Shown: positions 673 through 35,605 of the stretch, in pieces
Layout of the letters: every line of letters starts with the position of its first letter
Numbering within the stretch: the stretch's first letter is position 1
Assembly: GCF_014696615.1 (NCBI RefSeq)
Contig: NZ_JACJQJ010000011.1
Coordinates: forward strand, 1 to 64,000
Source: Nostoc linckia FACHB-104
Lineage (GTDB): Bacteria; Cyanobacteriota; Cyanobacteriia; Cyanobacteriales; Nostocaceae
DNA length: 64,000 bases
Direction: 5' to 3'
Made by a program: the position numbers and the translations under genes
The notes under the pieces: model-generated
What the model was told of the DNA's origin: nothing
The model's database searches: none
What the model saw: the letters and a program-made list of their open reading frames with translations, nothing else

Positions 673-872
673 ACCGCAATCTCGACAATTTGAGCATTTG
701 ATTCCAGTTTGTGACTACTATTTGCGACTTCTAACCAGCCTTCTATTGCATCTTTTAAATTACTTAATACCTCCTCCATTGTCTCACCTTCAGTAATACA
801 ACCGGGAAGTGCTGGAACTTCAGCCCAATAGCCACCTTCTTCTGCTGGATGAATAATTGCTTTTATTTTCAT
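669..872 (-). CDS. hicB: HicB-family antitoxin
   Basis: This 67-residue protein has the partial RNase H fold of HicB antitoxins: MKIKAIIHPAEEGGYWAEVP, LPGCITEGETMEEVLSNLKDAIEGWL. It is the short form without an obvious C-terminal DNA-binding domain. HicB normally binds and neutralises HicA. Here it is the first gene of a minus-strand pair and its stop overlaps the hicA frame. The antitoxin is intact although the toxin start is lost. No strong Shine-Dalgarno sequence is visible upstream. Confidence 0.88.
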   Translation of the reverse strand: MKIKAIIHPAEEGGYWAEVPALPGCITEGETMEEVLSNLKDAIEGWLEVANSSHKLESNAQIVEIAV

Positions 873-985
873 CGGCTTTGCTTTTCTTGGCTTATATTCA
901 ATTATCCAGTTTTTCGGATTCTAGGGCAAACAAAAAACGTAATCAATCACAGTGCGATGTCTACGACAAGCCGCTTTGCGTCTAC

Positions 986-1028
986 CCATTCTCACCCAGA
1001 CAGCAAAATTGTGAATCGGTGCGATCGC
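986..1028. repeat. 43-bp dispersed repeat, copy 2
   Basis: Same block order as 411-453: CCATTCTCACCC, then CAAAATTGTGAATCGG, then the HIP1 octamer. It sits immediately upstream of the 21-bp tandem array. Confidence 0.65.
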
Positions 1029-1067
1029 ACTCTCACCCCATATAATCGCATTCAAAGTCGGTGCGAT

Positions 1068-1297
1068 CGCCTTCAAAATCGTTTTGATCGCCTTCAAAAT
1101 CGTTTTGATCGCCTTCAAAATCATTTTAATCGTCGTCAAAATCGTTTTGATCATCGTCAAAATCATTTTGATCGTCGTCAAAATCGTTTTAATCATCGTC
1201 AAAATCGTTTTGATCATCGTCAAATCGTTTTGATCATCGTCAAAATCGTTTTAATCGTCGTCAAAATCGTTTTGATCATCGTCAAAATCGTTTTGAT
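1068..1297. repeat. 21-bp tandem array (11 units)
   Basis: Eleven head-to-tail units of the form CGCCTTCAAAATCGTTTTGA plus a final T, with the first six bases varying (CGCCTT, CGTCGT, CATCGT). Each unit holds an imperfect palindrome CAAAA-TCG-TTTTG. Both strands are open over much of the array because 21 is a multiple of three. Unit 8 (1215-1234) is only 20 bp and shifts frame, and no ribosome binding site is visible, so coding is unlikely. The gap from hicB to base 1464 holds only this array and its flanking repeats. Confidence 0.9.
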
Positions 1298-1318
1298 TGC
1301 AATCTGAGTCGATCTGAT

Positions 1319-1799: not shown

Positions 1800-4355
1800 T
1801 TACACTTTACAAGTCGCAGTGCGAGAGAAAAGAGATATCGTATTCCCCACTCTCTCCTTCCCGTAAAGGTAAAACCGGTAACGCGAAGTCAAACGAATAA
1901 TAGGTAGGCTACCCCTATACGAAGGGTTATATTTTATATGCTTCAGCAGTTCTTCGTATCTCACAAAGTCGCCTCCCGCTATTTTGTCATCATACCATCC
2001 TACTGCCTTGGCAAACGAAATATAATCTTGTGAATTTTTATCCCATATTTCCTTTTGCACACTGAAGCCAAAACGTTTGTCTGAATTCGTGACCCAAAGC
2101 TTGTCTATTTTTTGCAGATCTGGACAAGAAAAGTTATTAATGTCGTCATAATCTAAATATCCTTGTTCTTCTCTTTTAGCAATATTAAGCATGAGTTTGT
2201 ATGTTTGCTCATCAGCTGCTTGCCAATTTTTAGCTTTCAAATAATATTCAAGTTGAGCATATAAATACTGGGTAAGAGATTGTTCAACCTTTTCTATCAA
2301 TTTTTGTTCTCTCTTCTTGAGGAGATCATCCTTCTTGAGAATATCAATTAAAAGTTGATGAACAGATTCAATAACCTCACTGTCAATAATTTTTGGTAAG
2401 GTTGATTGTAAAGAAATGATATTAGAGTTTTTTTCAAGAATATTGAACGCTTCCTTATAAGCTTCTATTGCATTTTGAGTATTGTTTTGTTCACTGAGTA
2501 ATTTCCCTTGAATGTTTAAGGCGAATATTTGTGTCTCCAATAATTCACTTTTTGATTCTCTATTCACTCTTTCCTCATTATTCTGTTTCCACCCTCTTAA
2601 AAAGTTCATACTCTGTTTAATAGATTCTTCTGCTGACTTCCAATCTTTGAGTTCTTGATAAACTAATGATTTAGCAGCATGGAGATATACTTGTTCAATT
2701 TGAGCGTCTTTAATTTTAATAGCTGCTTGTTTGGATATCAACTTAGCTGCATATGAATTTGCGTGTAATTTGCTCGCCAATTCTCTTAGCTGTTGGGGAT
2801 ATGCTACATATGTGTATGTTTCTTCAAGTTTTTGTTGCGCTTCTTTAACTTTTTGTTGCGCTTCTTTAACTTCTTTTGCAGCCAATATCACTGAAATTGC
2901 TGCTACTAATACAGTAAAAATTAAAAAAATAGTTCCATTACGAATTTGTTGTTTAGCTTTGCGGTTAGTTTCACTAAGTAATTTATTTCTATATTCTGCT
3001 GCTTCTTTTTCCTGTCTTTCTCTTTCAAAAGCAGCTTCTCTATCCTGTCTTTCTCTTTCAAAAGCAGCTTCTTGTTCTTTAACAGCAATCTCTTCTTGAA
3101 TTTCTTGCTTTTTACTCTCTGATAAAAACTCCTCATCTTGATAACTTAAAATCTTACCCTTCGCCCAGGCTTTCGCTTCTTCTAAAGCCTTTCCCCGCAA
3201 TAATCGTGATGTATCCTTTCCTTGGGAAGCTACCCAAAAACGGAAATTCTCTGAATATGGACGTAATTTTTTTAATTGATTATCTATCCAATTTTGATTA
3301 AAAACTTCGTTGTATATGGGATTATAAACTCTTAAATTATTTTGCTGCCTAAAAACCAATCCTGAAAGCTGTAACTCACTTTGCTCTAAAGTATCATTGG
3401 CTATAATTTCAGATTGTTCATCCCTCAATCTAATTTTCTGATACAGTTCTAGCAAATATCCAGCACGTTGTTCATCGCGCAAAATTCGAGCTTGAATTGT
3501 GCGTAAATGCTCAGGCTCATCTTGCGATTCCCAGTTTTCAATAATCCGCGACTTTACTACCTGCTCAACATTGCGAGGATTGTCTTGCAAAGATTCTTCA
3601 ATCATCAACTGACAAAGTTTTTGCGTCAGAAATGGTTGTCCTCCTGTCCAATATAAAATTTCCTCCATGACTGCTTGAGGATGAGAAAATCTCCCTGACA
3701 TCCCCCTAGCTAACGGCTCAATTTCATGCAATTGAAAACCAGTCAACGAGATAGCTTGACCAATATTAAACGGAGTGCGTTGTTTATCCTCAATCAAATT
3801 GCTAGGTGATGCGACTCCCAACAAGCAAAAAGTGAGGCGATTATATTCAGGATTATCAACCCGCTTGTTATAACAGGCACGAATCAATGCAAAAAAATCA
3901 TCTGTAGGAAACTTCAGGCTGAGTACACTATCAATTTCATCAATAAAAATAACGATATTTTCTTTTACTTCAACCAGTAATATTTCTTCTAAAAACTTGC
4001 GAAATCTCGTTACCAGGGAATTTAATTGATTAGCTTCCCACCAATCACCAAAATCTACATCTAAGTCAAAAGTTTCAATTAAATTATCAATTAAATCTGC
4101 ATACCATTGTTCCGGCGGTACATTTTGAATCCCCCCAGCCGAAAGGTCAATTGCTGCACATTGTACACCTTCTTCTCTGAGTCTTTGCATGGTACGCACA
4201 CGCAAGCTAGACTTTCCGCTTTGTCGGGAGTTCAATACATAACAAAACTTTCCCGCTTTTAATCCCGCATACAAATCACTGTCAGCTTGGCGTGTAACGT
4301 AGGTGCTGGCATTTTCCGGTAAACTTCCAGAGAATATATATTGGTCATTTGTCAT
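1800..4355 (-). CDS. AAA_35-type STAND ATPase with transmembrane helix and C-terminal GUN4 domain
   Basis: This 851-residue protein has three parts. Residues 1-370 form the cyanobacterial AAA-like (AAA_35) NTPase, with a P-loop SRQSGKSS near residue 47, Walker B VIFIDEID and the RTPFNIG and WTGGQPFLTQ motifs. A charged coiled coil (about 400-465) leads to one membrane helix (about 470-492). A helical, TPR-like stretch follows, and residues about 700-825 match GUN4: NWQAADEQTYKLML, EEQGYLDYDDIN, CPDLQKIDKLW, RFGFSVQKEIW and a final GSLP. GUN4 binds Mg-porphyrins in chlorophyll synthesis; fused forms may act as tetrapyrrole sensors. It is the second gene after CHAT-AAA_35 (4642-6243). Its first four codons lie in a TCATTTG array. 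ATP-driven signalling at a membrane is inferred. Confidence 0.85.
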   Translation of the reverse strand: MTNDQYIFSGSLPENASTYVTRQADSDLYAGLKAGKFCYVLNSRQSGKSSLRVRTMQRLREEGVQCAAIDLSAGGIQNVPPEQWYADLIDNLIETFDLDVDFGDWWEANQLNSLVTRFRKFLEEILLVEVKENIVIFIDEIDSVLSLKFPTDDFFALIRACYNKRVDNPEYNRLTFCLLGVASPSNLIEDKQRTPFNIGQAISLTGFQLHEIEPLARGMSGRFSHPQAVMEEILYWTGGQPFLTQKLCQLMIEESLQDNPRNVEQVVKSRIIENWESQDEPEHLRTIQARILRDEQRAGYLLELYQKIRLRDEQSEIIANDTLEQSELQLSGLVFRQQNNLRVYNPIYNEVFNQNWIDNQLKKLRPYSENFRFWVASQGKDTSRLLRGKALEEAKAWAKGKILSYQDEEFLSESKKQEIQEEIAVKEQEAAFERERQDREAAFERERQEKEAAEYRNKLLSETNRKAKQQIRNGTIFLIFTVLVAAISVILAAKEVKEAQQKVKEAQQKLEETYTYVAYPQQLRELASKLHANSYAAKLISKQAAIKIKDAQIEQVYLHAAKSLVYQELKDWKSAEESIKQSMNFLRGWKQNNEERVNRESKSELLETQIFALNIQGKLLSEQNNTQNAIEAYKEAFNILEKNSNIISLQSTLPKIIDSEVIESVHQLLIDILKKDDLLKKREQKLIEKVEQSLTQYLYAQLEYYLKAKNWQAADEQTYKLMLNIAKREEQGYLDYDDINNFSCPDLQKIDKLWVTNSDKRFGFSVQKEIWDKNSQDYISFAKAVGWYDDKIAGGDFVRYEELLKHIKYNPSYRGSLPIIRLTSRYRFYLYGKERVGNTISLFSRTATCKV

Positions 4356-4470
4356 TTGTCATTTGTCATTTGTCATTTGTCATTGGTCATTTGTCATTTG
4401 TCATTTGTCATTGGTCATTTGTCATTTGTCATTTGTCATTTGTCATTTGTCATTTGTCATTTGTCATTTG
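4345..4470. repeat. STRR heptamer array (TCATTTG, 18 units)
   Basis: Eighteen units of TCATTTG, a few reading TCATTGG. It covers the 5' end and the entire proximal leader of the minus-strand AAA_35-GUN4 gene, whose ATG (4353-4355) lies in the second unit. Reading the array as ATGACAA also gives repeated out-of-frame ATG codons upstream of the true start. Confidence 0.92.
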
Positions 4471-4499
4471 TTATCGGAGAGCATCCCACTTTTTTGACT

Positions 4500-4604
4500 G
4501 TCATTGCGAATGGAGCGTTCGCGAAGCGTCCCGGAGGGAAGCGGAGTGAAGCAATCGCAAAGTCTAGCTGCTGCGATTGCTTCGTTGTTCCTCCTTGCAA
4601 TGAC
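4500..4604. repeat. MITE-like extragenic repeat with GTCATTGC/GCAATGAC ends
   Basis: Terminal inverted repeats GTCATTGCGA and TTGCAATGAC enclose GCGTTCGCGAAGCGTCCCGG and a second inverted pair, AAGCAATCGC and GCGATTGCTT. This is the common bacterial and Nostocales 'gtcattgcgaa...' dispersed element. It sits between the two genes of the CHAT/GUN4 locus. Confidence 0.75.
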
Positions 4605-4641
4605 ATAAAGATGTCTTTCCACATTTGGAATACTCCCGATA

Positions 4642-6243
4642 TTACCCTAAACGCACTGCGAAATACTGACGATATAATTCATAACTGGGAACACAATCAT
4701 TACCTGAAAGTTTTACCAATCCTAAACTATGTAACTTGAATGCAACCTCAGTATCTAACCTGACGGGTGCATTCGCCGTTACCACTTGTTTATACCCTAA
4801 CTCAAGCAGAGAATTATGTTGTAAATGCCATAATTGCTGTCGCAAATGGTCGCTAAAAATTCCCTGTTCTGTTGGCGCAAACTGCAAAAGTTCTTTGATA
4901 GTAGCTTGGGGATTTTTTAGGTAAGCTACTGCTTGCTGGATTAAATCAGGGTGTCCTCCTACTAACGCTATCAACTCATTCAAAGCTTGTGTACTTAACT
5001 TATCTGCTAATTCATACTGTTGGGCAAGAAATTCTACTTGTTGGAGATTAAATTCAGTTAACTCAATTGGTAATCCCACATTAAATGGTGAATGATTAGT
5101 ATCTAAGGTAGGATATGATTCTGTGGAATGAACTACAACTAATCGCAGTTTCTTCCAAAGATTACCAATTTTATCTCCTTGTTTAGCTGCTTCATACCAG
5201 CCCCGCAGTAATAAACAGAATGAGGGGAAAATCTCTGGATATGCAAACAGTCGCTCAAAATTATCGATAGCTAAAACTAAAGGACTATCACTAGCCGCTA
5301 ATAAATATTTTTGAAAATATCGAGTACAGTTTTTATTTAATCCAAAAACATCTTGCCAGTATTTATCTAATTGCGGTTCTAGTTCCAGGCTATCGGCAAC
5401 ATCAACACATAACCATTGCAAAAATGTTTTTGCGTCAGCCAAAATATCACTATCAGCAAGCTTTAAATCTAATTTTGCTGTTCGATAACCTTGCTCTCTC
5501 CCATGATTAAGTACTTTCTCCAACAGCAAGGTTTTCCCCATTTTCTGCGGCGACCTAATGCGAATTAACGCCCCAGGTTGTAAGATAGCCTCATAACATT
5601 TCGCCTCAATTGGCGGTCTTTCTATATATATTGTTGTTGTCTCGGCTGCAGAATTTAATGATGCTGCATCGGATTTGGTAATTAATTGAGGTGTGAGATT
5701 TTCTCCTATTCCAGCCATACGAATCAAGCTACAACCTAATTTATAAGCAAACTCATAACCTTTATCTGCACCTAGCGCATCATAAAAACCTACGGCAAAT
5801 TCAATAGCTGCTTTATCACCAATTCTCTGACTCATGCCGACAACATAATTAATATGTCTTGCAATTTCCCCAGCTTGATATTGAGAAAAACAGGCATTGA
5901 GTACAACACATTCTACTTGGTCAGCAAATAATTGAAATAACCCAGCTAAAGCTTCCCCATCAACTAATTTAATTTGACCAGACTCATCTTCAAATACTAA
6001 GCCTTCTTCTCCAGTTCCATGACCAGAAAAGTGAATAATCTGCGGTTCGTATTCTAAAATAGCTCTGTGTATATCTCTATAGCGTACTGCTTCGGCTGTG
6101 GCTATGAAATATTGGTCACGATTCTTTGACCTTTTCAACCCTTCTTTAATTTCGCGCATCTCTTCACCCAAACGCAATGGATTGGTACCTCTGGGATTTG
6201 CGGATAAAAGCAGGATTTTCCGAGTTTGATTATGATCAGTCAT
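4642..6243 (-). CDS. CHAT-domain (caspase-like) protease fused to AAA_35 ATPase
   Basis: A 533-residue protein. Residues 1-185 are a CHAT domain, the caspase-HetF-associated cysteine protease fold: KILLLSANPRGTNPLRLGEE, catalytic His75 in HFSGHG and Cys118 in VVLNACFS, both present. Residues about 205-530 form an AAA_35-type NTPase with P-loop SPQKMGKT (231-238; the usual first glycine is serine), Walker B-like LVLAIDNFE and SPFNVGLPIEL. It is the upstream gene of a minus-strand pair, 286 bp before the AAA_35-GUN4 gene; that gap holds a MITE and an STRR array. It resembles STAND receptors in which nucleotide-driven oligomerisation activates a death-like protease. The substrate is unknown; the neighbouring membrane protein is one candidate. 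Confidence 0.88.
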   Translation of the reverse strand: MTDHNQTRKILLLSANPRGTNPLRLGEEMREIKEGLKRSKNRDQYFIATAEAVRYRDIHRAILEYEPQIIHFSGHGTGEEGLVFEDESGQIKLVDGEALAGLFQLFADQVECVVLNACFSQYQAGEIARHINYVVGMSQRIGDKAAIEFAVGFYDALGADKGYEFAYKLGCSLIRMAGIGENLTPQLITKSDAASLNSAAETTTIYIERPPIEAKCYEAILQPGALIRIRSPQKMGKTLLLEKVLNHGREQGYRTAKLDLKLADSDILADAKTFLQWLCVDVADSLELEPQLDKYWQDVFGLNKNCTRYFQKYLLAASDSPLVLAIDNFERLFAYPEIFPSFCLLLRGWYEAAKQGDKIGNLWKKLRLVVVHSTESYPTLDTNHSPFNVGLPIELTEFNLQQVEFLAQQYELADKLSTQALNELIALVGGHPDLIQQAVAYLKNPQATIKELLQFAPTEQGIFSDHLRQQLWHLQHNSLLELGYKQVVTANAPVRLDTEVAFKLHSLGLVKLSGNDCVPSYELYRQYFAVRLG

Positions 6244-6595
6244 TATGCAATTTGCACGGGATAAGCCTAAAAATTAGGCTAAACTGGCAGATATATACAT
6301 TTTGAGTATGCGGTTTTTCGGAATCTATTACAAGAAGGCTAGAATATGAAAATATAGAGATATATGATGATGTGTATTTGATTTGTGAAAAGATACATAG
6401 ATAGATGCGTTACGCTGTCGCTAACGCATCCTACAGCACTAAATATCTAATATAAATTCAATCCCTTTTCCCCTTTACCCTTTCCCCCAATTCTTTAAAT
6501 CGCCAACCTACCGTCAGGAGGAAGAGAGAATTTTATAGGTATGTTATGAATAATTTTGATATTTTAATGAGATTACTTATTAAGTTTTTATTTAT
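6244..6595. other. Intergenic region with a GATGCGTTA hairpin
   Basis: A divergent promoter region between the CHAT gene (minus) and the lipid kinase (plus). It contains the dispersed hairpin GATGCGTTACGC...GCTAACGCATC at about 6402-6430, also seen near 16955 and 20644, and a C-rich stretch at 6465-6490. No gene was seen. Confidence 0.6.
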
Positions 6596-7564
6596 ATGAA
6601 GCGTTCCGCCTGTCTTATTTTTAATCCTGTTGCCGGTCAGGGAGACTCAGAACAAGAACTAAATCAAATTCGCGCATTATTAGAGCCAGAAATAGACTTA
6701 GATGTTTACTTCACTACGGAAGAAGTTGGTGCTGACAAACTTGCACAGGAAGCAGTGGCGCGTGGTGTAGATGAAATTATTGCTTCTGGGGGTGATGGTA
6801 CTCTCTCGGCGGCGGCGGCGGCTGTAGTCAATACAGGTATTCCCTTAGGGATTATTTCACGAGGGACAGCGAACGCTTTTGCCACAGCTTTAGGCATCGC
6901 TGACACTATTGAAGCCGCTTGTGAGAATATCTTGCAAGGAGCAACTCGCAATGTAGATATAGCCTACTGTAACGATTTGCCAATGGTATTGCTGGTAGGC
7001 GTGGGTTTTGAAGCGGAAACCGTAGAACGTGCAGATAGAGAAGCCAAAAACCGTTTTGGGATTATGGCTTATGTTCTCGCTGGACTTCAGCAATTGCGGG
7101 ATTTTGAAACTTTTGATGTAGAAATTGAGACAGAAGACAAAATCATCAAAACTAGTGCGGCGGCTGTCACAGTAGCCAATGCAGCACCTCCCACTTCCGT
7201 TTTAGCGCAAGGGCCAGCCGGGATTCTTTATGATGATGGACTGCTAGATTTAACGATTGTAGCTCCAGTGAATAAAGCAGGTGCGATCGCAGCTACATAT
7301 CATCTCTTTCAAACCGCTTCCGCCGGTCATCCAGTCGAACGCGATGATATTGGCTACTTACGCGCCAAACAATTTAAAATCACCACAGAACCACCACAAA
7401 AAGTTGTCTTAGATGGCGAAATCATCGGCACAACCCCAATTGAAGTTAAGTGTGTTCCCGGCGGTTTGACGCTTTTTGTCCCCCAGGAAGAAGAAGAAGT
7501 ACTAGTTGAGAAGTTAGATGGACTACCCAATTTGGTAATTGAGATGAAAGAATCGGGGGAATAG
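6596..7564 (+). CDS. YegS/BmrU-type lipid (diacylglycerol) kinase
   Basis: This 322-residue protein belongs to the DAGK_cat family, which phosphorylates diacylglycerol, sphingoid bases or phosphatidylglycerol. It begins SACLIFNPVAGQGDSEQEL, the phosphate-binding start of the family. It carries the nucleotide-binding GGDGTLSAA (about residue 65) and GIISRGTANAFATALGI, and a C-terminal beta-sandwich with VVLDGEIIGTTPIEVKCVPG. The length is normal. The ATG at 6596 is the natural start given the motif position; no strong Shine-Dalgarno sequence is visible. It stands alone on the plus strand. The exact lipid substrate cannot be told from sequence. Confidence 0.88.
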   Translation: MKRSACLIFNPVAGQGDSEQELNQIRALLEPEIDLDVYFTTEEVGADKLAQEAVARGVDEIIASGGDGTLSAAAAAVVNTGIPLGIISRGTANAFATALGIADTIEAACENILQGATRNVDIAYCNDLPMVLLVGVGFEAETVERADREAKNRFGIMAYVLAGLQQLRDFETFDVEIETEDKIIKTSAAAVTVANAAPPTSVLAQGPAGILYDDGLLDLTIVAPVNKAGAIAATYHLFQTASAGHPVERDDIGYLRAKQFKITTEPPQKVVLDGEIIGTTPIEVKCVPGGLTLFVPQEEEEVLVEKLDGLPNLVIEMKESGE

Positions 7565-7573
7565 GGGATTGGG

Positions 7574-7711
7574 GATGAGGGAGATGAGGGAGATGAGGGA
7601 GATGAGGGAGACAAGGAGAAATGACCCATTACCCATTACCCATTACCCCTTCCCCTTTCCCCCTTTCCCCTTCCCCATGCCCCATGCCCTATGCCCCATG
7701 CCCCATGCCCA
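7574..7711. repeat. Three short tandem arrays (9-mer GATGAGGGA, heptamers CCCATTA and CCCCATG)
   Basis: Four units of GATGAGGGA at 7574-7609 are followed by CCCATTA repeats (about 7625-7646), C-rich runs and CCCCATG repeats (about 7672-7711). They fill the gap between the lipid kinase and the metallophosphoesterase and end a few bases before the latter's ribosome binding site. Confidence 0.85.
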
Positions 7712-7729
7712 CTTGAGGAGTAAATTCTA

Positions 7730-9292
7730 TTGAAACTAGTTTCTGATCCGGCGATCGCAAAAAAAATTAGTAAGATGCAGCAACGGGTAAAGTGGCAAGA
7801 CCCGTTAATTTTGGAACGCGGGATTGACCAAACTCGCTTGGTTTTGGATGATGGTCACGCGGATGATGGGGAGTTTTCGTTTTTGGTTGTGGGTGATAGT
7901 GGTTCCGGGACGCATAAGGGACACGATCCCCAAAGACGGGTGGCGGAATTGATGTTACCCCATCATGATGAATGTCGTTTTATGTTGCATACTGGCGATG
8001 TCATTTATTTGGTGGGGTCGAAGGAGTATTATCAACAAAACTTTATCCAGCCTTACCAGGAGTTTCTTGTTGGGGGAGAACAGCCGAAAAAGATTCCCTA
8101 TGACAAAATGGTTTTCCAGTTGCCGATTTTACCTGTACCGGGAAATCATGATTACTATAATCTGCCAATTTTATTTGGCTTAGCTTCGGTGACTACATTA
8201 CCCATTCGTCGCTTGTTAAAATCGCGACTAGATTTAGATGTGGGTTTGTATGGTTCAGGAACGGGTGAAGCTTATGCCAGAGCATTTTTAGATTATCTCT
8301 GCGCGCTAAAATCTCCTGTAGATTTAGCCAATCATTTAGATAAATATTACACTGCAAATACAGATAGCGGTCGCTGTCTCTCTTACCAGCCTGGAAGCTT
8401 TACTCGCTTGCCAAATCGCTATTACACGTTTCGCTATGGTGGCATAGATTTCTTTGCTCTGGATTCTAATACATTTAACGATCCACCACCACTGCCTAAT
8501 ACTCAAGAAGGCAATAGCGATCGCAGAATTTTAGAGAAACGCCGCACTAGTTTAGAGCAAGAAAAGCAGCAAATTACAGCAACCTCAGCAATGCTAAATC
8601 CCAGCAACCCCAAGGATGCTGAACAATTAGACGATTTACAAGTTAAACTCACCCAAATTGAGGAAATTATTGTTGATATTGAAAAGCAGCTAAACAGTAA
8701 CAAAATAACAGTAACTGATATCGAACAGCTAGACTGGCTCAGGCAAAAGCTAATTGAATCTTGGCACAACAAAGAAGTGCGTGGCAGGATAATTTATTTT
8801 CACCATCCCCCCTATGTGACTGAAGCGACGAAATGGCAACAAGCGCAAACTTTAGCAGTGCGTACCCGTTTGCGTGGGGTGTTAGATGCAGTAGCGGAAA
8901 AATTAGGTTCCTTAACTCAGGGCCGTCCTTTAGTAGATTTAGTGATTAACGGTCATGCCCATTGTCTAGAATATCTGCAAACTGCAGACACCGGACACGC
9001 TGATTCCCATATTCCCTGGATTGTTTGCGGTGGTAGTGGTTTTAGTTTGCGTCGCCAACGGGAAGAAGGGCCGGAGGTGCGGGAAATGATGGGAGATGAA
9101 GAGAAATTAGTAGCGCGATCGCAACTGTTTCTAGGACGCAGCGGACAGGGTTCCAACAAACACAGACCTTACTCTTGTCTGCGAATTGATGTGAAAGGGG
9201 AAGGCCAGCCTAAATTTATTGTCCGGCCTTTGGTCGCTGAATGGTATCAGCGGCAATGGTGCGATCGCGAAATTGAACCATTTGAGATTTAA
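7730..9292 (+). CDS. Calcineurin-like metallophosphoesterase
   Basis: A 520-residue protein with the full metallophosphatase metal site: GDSGSG (D-x-G motif), GDVIY, GNHDYY, HHPPY and NGHAH in order. An insert of about 80 residues (residues 255-335, charged and helical) separates GNHD from the last histidine motifs. No signal peptide is seen. The start is a TTG at 7730, supported by a strong Shine-Dalgarno sequence TGAGGAG nine bases upstream; no ATG lies between them. The substrate (phosphomonoester, phosphodiester or nucleotide) is not predictable. It follows the lipid kinase after 165 bp of tandem repeats, so co-transcription is uncertain. Confidence 0.85.
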   Translation: MKLVSDPAIAKKISKMQQRVKWQDPLILERGIDQTRLVLDDGHADDGEFSFLVVGDSGSGTHKGHDPQRRVAELMLPHHDECRFMLHTGDVIYLVGSKEYYQQNFIQPYQEFLVGGEQPKKIPYDKMVFQLPILPVPGNHDYYNLPILFGLASVTTLPIRRLLKSRLDLDVGLYGSGTGEAYARAFLDYLCALKSPVDLANHLDKYYTANTDSGRCLSYQPGSFTRLPNRYYTFRYGGIDFFALDSNTFNDPPPLPNTQEGNSDRRILEKRRTSLEQEKQQITATSAMLNPSNPKDAEQLDDLQVKLTQIEEIIVDIEKQLNSNKITVTDIEQLDWLRQKLIESWHNKEVRGRIIYFHHPPYVTEATKWQQAQTLAVRTRLRGVLDAVAEKLGSLTQGRPLVDLVINGHAHCLEYLQTADTGHADSHIPWIVCGGSGFSLRRQREEGPEVREMMGDEEKLVARSQLFLGRSGQGSNKHRPYSCLRIDVKGEGQPKFIVRPLVAEWYQRQWCDREIEPFEI

Positions 9293-9404
9293 GTAAGTTG
9301 GTGCAACGCCAACCAAACTATGTGATTTCTCCCCCTGCTCCCTGCCCCCTGCCCCCTTGCCTTATTCCAACAATAATTATTTACGCCGACCTACTTCGAC
9401 CTAC

Positions 9405-32821: not shown

Positions 32822-33202
32822 CTAACTTATTGATTTTCTCAACGCTTGCATTTGATTTGAAAGCATTGAACTTAGCTCTTTAGCATGGCTATAAAGTTCT
32901 TGGTATTGAGATTTTTCTAAATAGCCAACTTCCAGTGCAACTCTTAATAGACTACGAACTTCTCCAGCGGAACCTTTAGCTATATTTAAAAACTGTAAGT
33001 ACTCTTTACGAGAAAAACGCTCAAAACCTTCAGCAATATTTGTGGGAATTGAGACGGAAGCACGCCTTATCTGATCCCGCAAGCCAAAATCTTTGCTAAA
33101 GTTACCATCCTGAGTAAGTAAGTACACCTGCTTCACCAAATCAATAGCTCTTTGCCATACTCGTAAATCCTCAAATGTTTCTATTTTCTTCCTTTCCATC
33201 AC
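32822..33202 (-). CDS. Four-helix-bundle protein (23S rRNA intervening-sequence type)
   Basis: A 126-residue all-helical protein with the family signature: FEDLRVWQRAIDLVKQVYLL, DFGLRDQIRRASVSIPTNIA, EGFERFSRKEYLQFLNIAKG and SAGEVRSLLRVALEVGYL. The family contains S23 proteins encoded in 23S rRNA inserts, free-standing cyanobacterial copies, and the distantly related Avd proteins of diversity-generating retroelements. No reverse transcriptase or template repeat is nearby. It lies between the CHAT-TIR and WD40 STAND genes, on the same strand, with G-rich repeat DNA on both sides. Its function is unknown. Confidence 0.88.
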   Translation of the reverse strand: MMERKKIETFEDLRVWQRAIDLVKQVYLLTQDGNFSKDFGLRDQIRRASVSIPTNIAEGFERFSRKEYLQFLNIAKGSAGEVRSLLRVALEVGYLEKSQYQELYSHAKELSSMLSNQMQALRKSIS

Positions 33203-33469: not shown

Positions 33470-35605
33470 TCACCCACGCAAGTTCTCCCGGAAATAATCA
33501 GCATACAGTTGACAACGCGGGATCACTGTTCTCCCCTCCCTTCGCACCAACCCCGCACCCCGCAACCTGAAAAAGACACGCTCATCATCGCAGGTGTTAT
33601 GGCGAATTACCTGAAGCATACTTGGCACCAATTCCGCTTTACTATGCAGCCGAAACAAATGATTACGCAGATGATTACCAAAGGGGCCATTATCCGCCGT
33701 CGCTTTGGCAAATAATTCCGCAGTGGTGAAGCGCTGACTGGCGATTAAATACAGCGCCACCCTGACTAAATAAGGATGTCCATTCAGCAACGCCATTAAC
33801 TGCTGTTCTGCACTAGCATTCAACGGTGAACCATGACGGCGATTCAGGTCTGTAACCTGTGCGGCGGTAAAATCTTCTAAGTCAATCACCTCGCCCACAT
33901 TAAACGGGGATTGGTTGAGATTATCAATTAATTGGTAGGGTTCGGTAGAAGTCACCAGGGCTAAATCGAGTTGCTTCCAAATCGGTGTAGTGGCGCGGTT
34001 ATTGTGCCAACTGCGAAGCATTCCAAAGAAATCGGAACGGAATTCGGTATCAAAAGCCCTCTCAACTTCATCCATTGCTAACACTAAAGGCTGACCAAAT
34101 TCTTTCAACAAATAGCGCCCAATATAACGGGTGCAACGCTGACTATTACCCAAGGGCAAATTCCAATATTCAGCAACTTTATCTGCCATTTCTATTTCAT
34201 CAGTTAGCCAAGAGCAGAATTGCCGAAAGAATAAGTCAGCATTGGTTAAGGCTGCTTGATCAAATAATTGAAAATCCAAGAAAGCTACCCGCTTACCTGC
34301 ATTCACCGCTGCGCTACAGGTGCGAATTAACAACGAACTCTTGCCCATTTGTCGGGGGCCTTTAATGGTGATTGTCACACCTTGACGCTGAATCGCATTG
34401 AAAGCCAAAACATCACAAGCGCGTTCCACATAAAACCGAGACTCGCCATCCATTGTCCCTTCTGGCATTTCCAGCGCTATCGGCTGTGCGGAAGGAAAAG
34501 GCTGAGGTAAAGCTGAGGCTTCCCGTGGCTGCAGCAAACTGGCTTGATTCGCTTCCCCAATTGTTAATTCACCCCCAGAAATCGCCTGCATTAATTCTGC
34601 AATTAAGCGCGGTGTATCTTCCCCATCTCGCCAAACAGCCCAGTTAATCCCATTCAGGTAAACACTTAAAGGATACTGAAACGGCTCTAGATATGCCAAG
34701 CGCACCGGGAGAATCATCGGCTTTCCGCCTTGTTCCTTAGCTAGGCGACTAGCTGTAGCAATTTCCGCTTCCACCATCTCACTGTGGACAGAATGCTCAG
34801 AAAGGAAAACAATCAAAAAATCTGCTTGGCGAAGTTCCGCCTCAATACGTTCCGCCCAGCGTGTGCCTACGGTGATAATTTGGTCAATGAAAACTGTGTG
34901 ATGTTGAGCCAGCGCTTGCTGGACTTGCAATGCAATCGGCTCATCGGGGGTGACATGGCGTTTGTAGCTGATGAAGATGCGTTTGGGATTGGGGGAAGGG
35001 GGAAGGGGGAATGGGGAAGGGGAGGGAATTTCAGTTGGGGTTGGGGGGAGGTTTCGGCTTTTGAGGACTGGGGTGGCATATTCGGGGATATTTTCTAAAT
35101 CAATGGCGATGCGCCCAAATTCGTAAGCATCTTCGTAGGTTCTACCTGCACCAAGGGCATCATAAAACCCCACAGCAAATTTAATTGCTGCGCGATCGCC
35201 TACTGCTTTATTCATTCCTACTACATAATTAATATGTTGGTAAATCGCCTCAGCTTGCGCTTCGCTATAACAGGCGTTTAACAGCACACACTCTATCTTG
35301 TCCTGAAATAACCTAAACAGTCTGCCCAGTGACTCTGTACTCACCAGTTGCAACTGTCCGTGATTATCTTCTAAAACTAAACCTTGCTCACCTTCCCCAT
35401 GTCCACAGAAATGCACAATCTCCGGTTGATGATCCAAAAGCGCACGTCGCAAATCTTCAGGACGCACAGCCCATTTTGTAATCATCTCAAACTGCTCACG
35501 AATCTTCGCACGTTCCAACCCCGCCTGAATTTCCCGTACTTCCTCATCCAAGCGCAGCTTCACCGTATTCTTGGGATTTGCCGATAAAACCAGGATTTTT
35601 TTCAC
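33470..35605 (-). CDS. CHAT - TIR - AAA_35 STAND protein
   Basis: A 711-residue protein with two potential effectors. Residues 1-185 are a CHAT protease with His69 (HFCGHG) and Cys112 (VLLNACYS). Residues 187-207 are a Pro/Ser linker encoded by G-rich heptamers. Residues 208-335 are a TIR domain (KRIFISYKRHVTPDEPIALQ, ADFLIVFLSEHSVHSEMVEA; Glu281 is a candidate NADase residue). Residues about 385-711 form the AAA_35 ATPase (KGPRQMGKSS P-loop 415-424, VLAMDEVERAF Walker B, SPFNVGEVIDL). It lies upstream of the four-helix-bundle and AAA_35-WD40 genes and downstream of a Ser/Thr kinase, all minus strand. The composition suggests an NLR-like sensor with protease and NAD-cleaving outputs; the trigger is unknown. 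Confidence 0.9.
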   Translation of the reverse strand: MKKILVLSANPKNTVKLRLDEEVREIQAGLERAKIREQFEMITKWAVRPEDLRRALLDHQPEIVHFCGHGEGEQGLVLEDNHGQLQLVSTESLGRLFRLFQDKIECVLLNACYSEAQAEAIYQHINYVVGMNKAVGDRAAIKFAVGFYDALGAGRTYEDAYEFGRIAIDLENIPEYATPVLKSRNLPPTPTEIPSPSPFPLPPSPNPKRIFISYKRHVTPDEPIALQVQQALAQHHTVFIDQIITVGTRWAERIEAELRQADFLIVFLSEHSVHSEMVEAEIATASRLAKEQGGKPMILPVRLAYLEPFQYPLSVYLNGINWAVWRDGEDTPRLIAELMQAISGGELTIGEANQASLLQPREASALPQPFPSAQPIALEMPEGTMDGESRFYVERACDVLAFNAIQRQGVTITIKGPRQMGKSSLLIRTCSAAVNAGKRVAFLDFQLFDQAALTNADLFFRQFCSWLTDEIEMADKVAEYWNLPLGNSQRCTRYIGRYLLKEFGQPLVLAMDEVERAFDTEFRSDFFGMLRSWHNNRATTPIWKQLDLALVTSTEPYQLIDNLNQSPFNVGEVIDLEDFTAAQVTDLNRRHGSPLNASAEQQLMALLNGHPYLVRVALYLIASQRFTTAELFAKATADNGPFGNHLRNHLFRLHSKAELVPSMLQVIRHNTCDDERVFFRLRGAGLVRREGRTVIPRCQLYADYFRENLRG

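Follow-up and report, generated by a model that had tools for sequence, protein, structure and literature searches.

A recurrent pair of AAA_35 ATPase genes with exchangeable ends in Nostoc linckia FACHB-104: a candidate two-gene STAND-type receptor/effector module

The stretch of DNA considered here, hereafter the window, comprises 64,000 nucleotides of the cyanobacterium Nostoc linckia FACHB-104 (positions 1 to 64,000 of contig NZ_JACJQJ010000011.1, assembly GCF_014696615.1). Near its start lie two consecutive minus-strand genes, A and B, which both encode an AAA_35 ATPase and which together form the candidate receptor/effector module discussed below. Open reading frames (ORFs), Pfam and a Kyte-Doolittle scan bear out the layout given in the original prediction, a model's reading of the sequence that had placed a CHAT domain in the first gene and a membrane helix followed by a GUN4 domain in the second. 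The pair has the following features.

4642-6243, minus strand: gene A, a soluble CHAT-AAA_35 protein of 533 residues (effector slot plus STAND-type ATPase), from ORF, Pfam, AlphaFold and Foldseek
5767-6210, minus strand: CHAT domain of A, residues 12-159 (Pfam, 35.7 bits, above cut-off)
6019-6021 and 5890-5892, minus strand: codons of His75 and Cys118 of the CHAT domain
4657-5646, minus strand: AAA_35 of A, residues 200-529 (Pfam, 416 bits, above cut-off)
1800-4355, minus strand: gene B, 851 residues, with AAA_35, coiled coil, one membrane helix, helical/TPR-like region and GUN4
3297-4331, minus strand: AAA_35 of B, residues 9-353 (Pfam, 108 bits, above cut-off)
2877-2936, minus strand: single transmembrane helix of B, approximately residues 474-493 (Kyte-Doolittle 19-residue mean 2.77)
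2286-2855, minus strand: post-membrane helical region of B, residues 501-690, variable and apparently exchanged between relatives
1899-2273, minus strand: GUN4 domain of B, residues 695-819, paralog type (Pfam, 104 bits, above cut-off)
3000-3150, minus strand: approximate start of the putatively exchanged segment of B, where identity to syntenic relatives falls
1884-1901, minus strand: canonical LxNxLR site in the GUN4 of B, here IIRLTS, in a stretch of uncertain alignment
1809-1811, minus strand: Cys849 of B, third residue from the C-terminus (CKV)
4341-4475, ends approximate, minus strand: heptamer (ATGACAA-type) repeat array between A and B, read by eye

The two genes are 286 bp apart, and the heptamer array extends into, and supplies, the start codon of B. 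AlphaFold models have a mean pLDDT (predicted local distance difference test) of 84.7 for A and 76.8 for B. Foldseek relates the A model, with modest TM-scores, to SAVED-CHAT, the archaeal ATPases 2fna and 2qen and the plant TIR-NLRs RPP1 and Roq1, and the B model, again with modest TM-scores that do not discriminate STAND from ORC-like AAA+, to ORC/Cdc6, the Avs5 SIR2-STAND protein and GUN4 structures. Walker A and Walker B motifs and a STAND/ORC-type ATPase fold are found in both proteins, whose ATPases (AAA_A and AAA_B) belong to distinct subfamilies that are about 24% identical. The N-terminal domain of A has a CHAT fold with an intact His/Cys dyad at exactly the positions originally reported. 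In an alignment with the solved SAVED-CHAT structure 8tl0, His75 and Cys118 fall on its HFIGHG and NAC motifs, and A is a predicted protease. The HG motif is present in 23 of the 24 A proteins classed as CHAT, and the Cys after an NA, NS or NC motif is seen in those read by pattern, L030 being fragmentary (L-numbers are labels of individual relative loci). In B, the GUN4 domain reaches a TM-score of 0.70 by target length against Arabidopsis 7e2r, with 31% identity over 130 alignment columns, while TPR matches in the helical region are weak and fall under the Pfam cut-off.

A search for such neighbours across cyanobacteria, which the original prediction had suggested, shows that the pair recurs. 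The forward set started from 80 B loci in named genomes, from which two near-duplicates were dropped and to which the window was added, giving 82 B proteins at 78 loci; L079, in which B is split over two frames, was below the score bar and excluded. By a pairing rule that places A upstream of B, on the same strand and within 1.9 kb, A accompanies 58 of the 82 B genes (window included). The gap between the open frames of these pairs is 0-8 nt in 26, 9-300 nt in 17 and larger in nine, with an overlap in the remaining six. In the reverse set, made of the best 30 A loci with the window included, B was found within 1.5 kb downstream in 18 and just upstream in two. Wider stretches around the other 10 revealed a B 1.8-2.8 kb downstream in four, a convergent one in one and none in five, so that B lies downstream in 22 of 30 out to 2.8 kb and adjacent in another arrangement in three more. 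Recurrence in both searches speaks against a chance adjacency of A and B. Among 292 genomes sampled from the window's phylum, 88 contain the ATPase of A at E <= 1e-30. Distances among A and among B proteins are correlated over the 58 pairs (Mantel r 0.91) and also within two lineages of 31 and 23 pairs (0.73 and 0.83, respectively), with 0 of 999 permutations in each case, although this correlation partly mirrors shared species history. In the window, as in all 58 counted pairs, effector, ATPase and sensor are split over two genes.

Both ends of the pair are exchangeable. Among 58 A N-termini, Pfam identifies CHAT in 22, TIR_2 in 16, Trypsin_2 in eight, a PGAP1-like domain in three and a kinase in one; combined effectors (CHAT+TIR, trypsin+TIR and kinase+TIR) occur among those scanned singly, and the slot includes alpha/beta-hydrolase domains. 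Some A genes carry instead a short beta/helical, adaptor-type segment (L016, L018, L023, L026, L029, L034 and L038), for which Pfam gave no hit in L034, the only member scanned. Its beta part recurs, with pentapeptide repeats, in upstream genes at five loci (L016, L018, L026, L029 and L038), and these neighbourhoods also hold a NACHT gene in L026 and a TRADD-like N-terminal domain in L029. Among 81 B C-termini, GUN4 (34) and WD40 (25) are joined by single cases of PBP_like_2, Peripla_BP_6, CHASE2, PG_binding_1, MORN, Trypsin_2, GAF/PAS/cyclase, histidine kinase and CHAT. On these counts, CHAT plus GUN4 is only one version of the pair. The window itself holds two pairs of the same kind, CHAT/GUN4 and CHAT+TIR/WD40, the second of which consists of the following genes.

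33470-35605, minus strand: second gene A, CHAT+TIR+AAA_35, 711 residues
29270-32761, minus strand: second gene B, AAA_35, one membrane helix and WD40, 1163 residues

A small ORF (32822-33202) lies between these two genes; it presumably resembles a four-helix-bundle protein.

Exchange of the sensor can be followed within the window's own lineage, whose closest named relatives by gene B are Calothrix membranacea FACHB-236 and Nostoc carneum NIES-2107. Sequence flanking the locus on either side is matched in L009, L019 and L012 (for L019, 93% over 4638-9292 and 98% over 99-454), and identity inside B drops, from about window position 3000-3150 onward, relative to these syntenic relatives. Between the window and L009, AAA_B has a synonymous divergence (dS) of 0.089 and two neighbouring genes have values of 0.089-0.095, but dS rises to 0.446 in the post-membrane helical region, falls to 0.012 in the GUN4 core and reaches 0.436 in the last 86 residues; between the window and L019 it is 0.173 in AAA_B, 0.249-0.253 in the neighbours and 1.66 in the helical region. 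No comparable jump is seen in A (CHAT 0.147 and 0.126, AAA_A 0.077 and 0.187, against L009 and L019, respectively). The tree of AAA_B groups the window with L009 and L019 (Shimodaira-Hasegawa-like approximate likelihood ratio test, SH-aLRT, 96) and these three with L011 and L012 (99). That of the post-membrane region places the window and L009 with L010, L013, L015, L021 and L037 (100) and L019 with L011 and L012 (98). For this region, the approximately unbiased (AU) test rejects both the window+L009+L019 group (p 9.5e-43) and the five-row group (9.6e-06), these being quick trees and the tested groups having been taken from the AAA_B tree. A purely vertical divergence of the sensor half of B is rejected because synonymous divergence jumps within one gene and the tree groupings conflict, and the likeliest explanation of these sequence patterns is that recombination with other alleles or paralogs exchanged this half in situ. 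Positive selection on B was also considered and discarded: in the last 86 residues the high nonsynonymous divergence (dN) is accompanied by high dS, which points to exchange, and the sole ratio above 1 (2.02, in the GUN4 core against L009) rests on 0.5 synonymous changes. A short in-frame repeat region at window positions 849-1307 has many partial copies in the flanks of relatives.

The topology of B was read from a Kyte-Doolittle scan combined with a count of Lys and Arg on either side of the helix. Exactly one helix follows the ATPase in 34 of 35 GUN4-type and 18 of 18 WD40-type B proteins (classes of our own), these residues are more numerous on the N side of the B helix in 62 of 79 proteins and fewer in three, and a membrane helix is absent from 57 of the 58 A proteins scanned. 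Behind the first helix, other B proteins carry solute-binding (L013 and L065), CHASE2 (L063, with two further helices after it) or peptidoglycan-binding (L048) domains, L035 resembling L013 by eye. Helix-free versions also exist, ending in a histidine kinase (L018), a cyclase (L070) or HsdR (L159). Since there is a single helix, a charge bias and, behind the first helix, domains that are normally external, the GUN4 end of B is predicted to lie outside the cytoplasm.

The two ATPases differ in their catalytic motifs. B has its Walker A (QSGKSS) at residue 45 and its Walker B (FIDEID) at 137, and GKS or GKT together with a Walker B Asp-Glu is found in 82 of 82 B proteins. A has its Walker A (MGKT) at residue 235, and its Walker B reads Asp327-Asn328, the second acidic residue being replaced by Asn. 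All 58 A proteins have the Walker A GK and 56 have the Walker B Asp, the two exceptions being a gap and an Asn; the residue that follows is Asn in 31, Glu in 23, Lys in two, Arg in one and a gap in one. In our local classes of A, Asp-Asn is found in 22 of the 24 CHAT-class proteins (the others being one gap and one CHAT+TIR protein with Glu) and Asp-Glu in 15 of the 15 proteins with TIR but without CHAT. Because Walker B is Asp-Asn in A while it is intact in B, A in the lineage of the window may bind ATP without efficient turnover and depend on B.

An unusual version of the module is found elsewhere in the same genome, where contig C36 carries a CHAT-AAA_35 gene, then a 1688-residue frame and then HsdS.

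4278-9341 of locus L159: two AAA_35 domains plus a Type I restriction R subunit (ResIII, EcoEI_R_C), without membrane helix

By its domain order, this fusion is a B whose sensor half is replaced by HsdR. In a genome of the same genus (L204), CHAT-AAA_35, AAA_35-GUN4, HsdR and HsdS follow each other as separate genes, whereas HsdR/HsdS stand without the AAA_35 pair in the stretches examined of L205-L208, and the presence of the module beside this restriction operon therefore varies. The HsdR-fused B is not a recurrent type: in a search of 118 genomes (E <= 1e-200, up to four candidates scored per genome) only the window's own genome has the fusion, the other seven matches covering HsdR alone.

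How could such a pair work? We consider it probable that A and B work together as a two-gene module of STAND type, with B as the membrane receptor and A as the soluble effector ATPase under its control. The AAA_35 ATPase of B would face the cytoplasm, and the single helix would connect it to an exchangeable recognition domain beyond the membrane, which in the window is the helical region together with the GUN4-fold domain. A would stay in solution, its AAA_35 ATPase bearing an effector that is likewise exchangeable and that in the window is a CHAT protease. Signalling would begin when a ligand, which is unlikely to be a tetrapyrrole, acts on the recognition domain of B; the intact ATPase of B would then switch state and assemble with A. 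The latter, without the usual Walker B glutamate, would bind ATP with no efficient turnover, and clustering would activate CHAT, resulting in protein cleavage and in cell arrest or death. Contact between A and B, the direction of signalling, topology, activation and role (anti-invader defence or death under stress) are thus what we infer from sequence comparisons and structure models.

Several observations weigh against this scenario. By the pairing rule, 24 of the 82 B genes have no A. Four of them sit at the end of a contig, in three A lies downstream instead, and in another four it is found within 1.3 kb but on the opposite strand; for the rest, A is farther off, fragmentary or not found. 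The co-divergence of A and B is, as mentioned above, in part a reflection of species history, and the ends depend partly on lineage because CHAT and GUN4 co-occur in 18 of 31 Asp-Asn pairs, Asp-Glu pairs being mostly TIR with WD40 or other ends. A slot that is always outside the cytoplasm sits awkwardly with the CHAT domain found behind one helix in the B of L045 (confirmed) and L062 (by eye), and the GUN4-type B of L046 shows no helix. Furthermore, the C-terminal tail of B (1803-1829 in the window), where 28 of 35 module GUN4 proteins have a Cys as their third-last residue and which often reads FSR..TCKV or SRCDL, is also found in three helix-free GUN4 proteins of the host genome (L004, L006 and L007), two of them caspase-like by eye; this GUN4 type is thus also cytoplasmic, the tail being common to helix-free caspase-like GUN4 fusions. 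Our confidence is slightly reduced by the B genes that lack a partner and by the GUN4 relatives that have no helix. Finally, the PADLOC model PDLC04062 (PD-T4-6) matches the GUN4 end of B, but the resulting label gives no evidence of defence. It is a model artefact, PDLC04062 having matched five of five GUN4 proteins tested, the canonical one included (113 bits). A cyanobacterial kinase-GUN4 protein is matched by this model over nearly its whole length, Pfam finds in B no protein kinase domain (a PD-T4-6 trait), and PDLC04062 may mislabel cyanobacterial GUN4 proteins as defence.

A role in biological conflict is favoured by the effector types, the exchange of sensors, the restriction-operon context and the neighbours of adaptor-type A genes, although the environmental sensor domains leave room for stress signalling. 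In the latter case, which we regard as possible yet rather unlikely, the pair would serve stress or developmental signalling, the sensor reading envelope, nutrient or redox state and the effector triggering regulated proteolysis or death. The solute-binding, CHASE2 and peptidoglycan-binding domains seen in the sensor slot are typical environmental sensor domains, and two genes adjoining the window pair look by eye like a lipid kinase and a metallophosphatase, not like defence genes. However, CHAT, TIR and trypsin dominate the effector slot, and passages of Kaur 2020 (PMC7159879) list caspase-like, TIR and trypsin domains in conflict systems. The sensor is apparently exchanged in place, the module can stand beside a Type I restriction operon, and pentapeptide, TRADD-like and NACHT genes neighbour adaptor-type A genes, all of which counts against this alternative.

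A second alternative is the one advanced in the original prediction, namely that porphyrin or bilin binds GUN4 and switches CHAT, making the pair a tetrapyrrole-gated protease. In its favour, the GUN4 fold is real (Pfam, Foldseek), the DLQ..D.LW and FGFSVQ blocks are kept in module GUN4 domains, and a role of GUN4 as tetrapyrrole sensor in cyanobacterial conflict systems has already been proposed, in passages of Kaur 2020 (PMC7159879). The residues of the LxNxLR motif have been tied to bilin and porphyrin binding in passages of two papers (PMC10156173, PMC8967248), the latter describing weakened porphyrin binding upon change of the Arg214 equivalent. The host genome (a 9.39 Mb assembly in 181 contigs) has 11 GUN4 matches, and the canonical GUN4, one of the eight read besides that of the window, reads LSNQLR where the window has IIRLTS. 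As aligned, 35 module GUN4 domains have LxNxLR in 0/35, Asn211 in 0/35 and Arg214 in 3/35 (Synechocystis numbering), in a hypervariable stretch after RGSLP where their alignment is uncertain; the equivalent of SynPhe196/AtPhe191 is not reliably placed, the loop alignment being too uncertain. Independently of position, LxNxLR is not present anywhere in the window's GUN4 domain, and a looser pattern matches one module GUN4 (L014). By contrast, the motif is found in 25 of 25 readable canonical controls; for this set, 60 genomes of the order were searched and the 30 best GUN4 loci taken, five of these loci being unreadable by pattern. Porphyrin-binding residues are thus missing, which the original prediction had itself named as telling against it. 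Porphyrin gating was dropped as the leading model since the motif is missing in module GUN4s and universal in the readable controls, and, with the stretch after RGSLP being hypervariable and the domain predicted to be extracytoplasmic, we hold it to be quite improbable. The motif loss suggests that the window's GUN4 is not a normal pigment binder and that the ligand of B is probably not a tetrapyrrole. What stands of the original proposal is a signalling or conflict module, which the recurring pair and its context fit; its tetrapyrrole responsiveness is unsupported. As for A and B being mere neighbours by chance or tandem duplication, with no joint function, the AAA_35 domain in both genes and the unpaired B genes could be cited in support, but two distinct subfamilies kept mostly in the same order across Cyanobacteria, with correlated divergence, make it extremely unlikely.

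More broadly, and with more doubt than for the pair itself, it may tentatively be proposed that these genes represent a large cyanobacterial family of transmembrane two-component STAND receptors. In such a family, a B with a fast-exchanged recognition domain (GUN4 fold, WD40, solute-binding and others) would fire a matched effector (CHAT, TIR, trypsin) via A. The GUN4 fold, originally a pigment binder, would have become a variable module for recognition, and the core could couple to a Type I restriction motor. If true, this would be a widespread bacterial receptor system with sensing and killing split over two switch ATPases, one of them membrane-spanning, extending NLR-like logic to signalling across a membrane. 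It would also provide natural chimaeras for testing STAND signal transfer, and hint at a reason for the persistence of some cyanobacterial GUN4 paralogs that lack the pigment-binding motif.

Comparison with known systems shows which parts of this module have precedents. A shares with SAVED-CHAT (8tl0) a CHAT domain and its HG and NAC motifs, but no SAVED is among the Pfam hits of A, whose CHAT is joined to AAA_35. Canonical GUN4, the Mg-chelatase cofactor, shares the fold, whereas the window's GUN4 is without LxNxLR, stands behind a membrane helix and has a Cys tail at its end. Passages on metacaspase-GUN4 fusions and on variable proteins of cyanobacterial diversity-generating retroelements (DGR) describe fusions of GUN4 or CHAT with domains for proteolysis or signalling (PMC3501461, PMC7517822), but these are single proteins and the tandem AAA_35 pair is not mentioned in those passages. 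Closer in organization are the nucleoside triphosphate (NTP)-dependent conflict systems of Kaur (PMC7159879, PMC8195603), in which, according to parts of these papers, a constant NTPase core is combined with swappable peptidase, TIR, kinase, repeat, FGS and GUN4 domains. They are reported mostly from multicellular prokaryotes, and their adaptor logic is resembled by the adaptor-type A genes here, which adjoin pentapeptide, TRADD-like and NACHT genes. However, the cores described in those parts are MoxR-vWA plus VMAP or iSTAND, GTPase-GAP1, EACC1-caspase or TRADD-N, while that of the window consists of two AAA_35 proteins encoded in tandem, of which A is soluble and B membrane-bound. Neither MoxR nor vWA is among the Pfam hits of A and B (no dedicated search of neighbouring genes was made), and the term AAA_35 is absent from the main text of Kaur 2020 (PMC7159879). 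In line with the original statement that no characterised system with this pairing was known, no description of the tandem pair was found in the open literature searched, although one may exist under another name or elsewhere. The idea of GUN4 as a conflict-system sensor is already in print (PMC7159879). Finally, plant TIR-NLRs and bacterial Avs combine an effector, a STAND-like ATPase and a recognition region, and the structure models match them. In the present module, by contrast, effector and sensor belong to separate proteins that each contain an ATPase, and a membrane helix is present in the one that bears the sensor.

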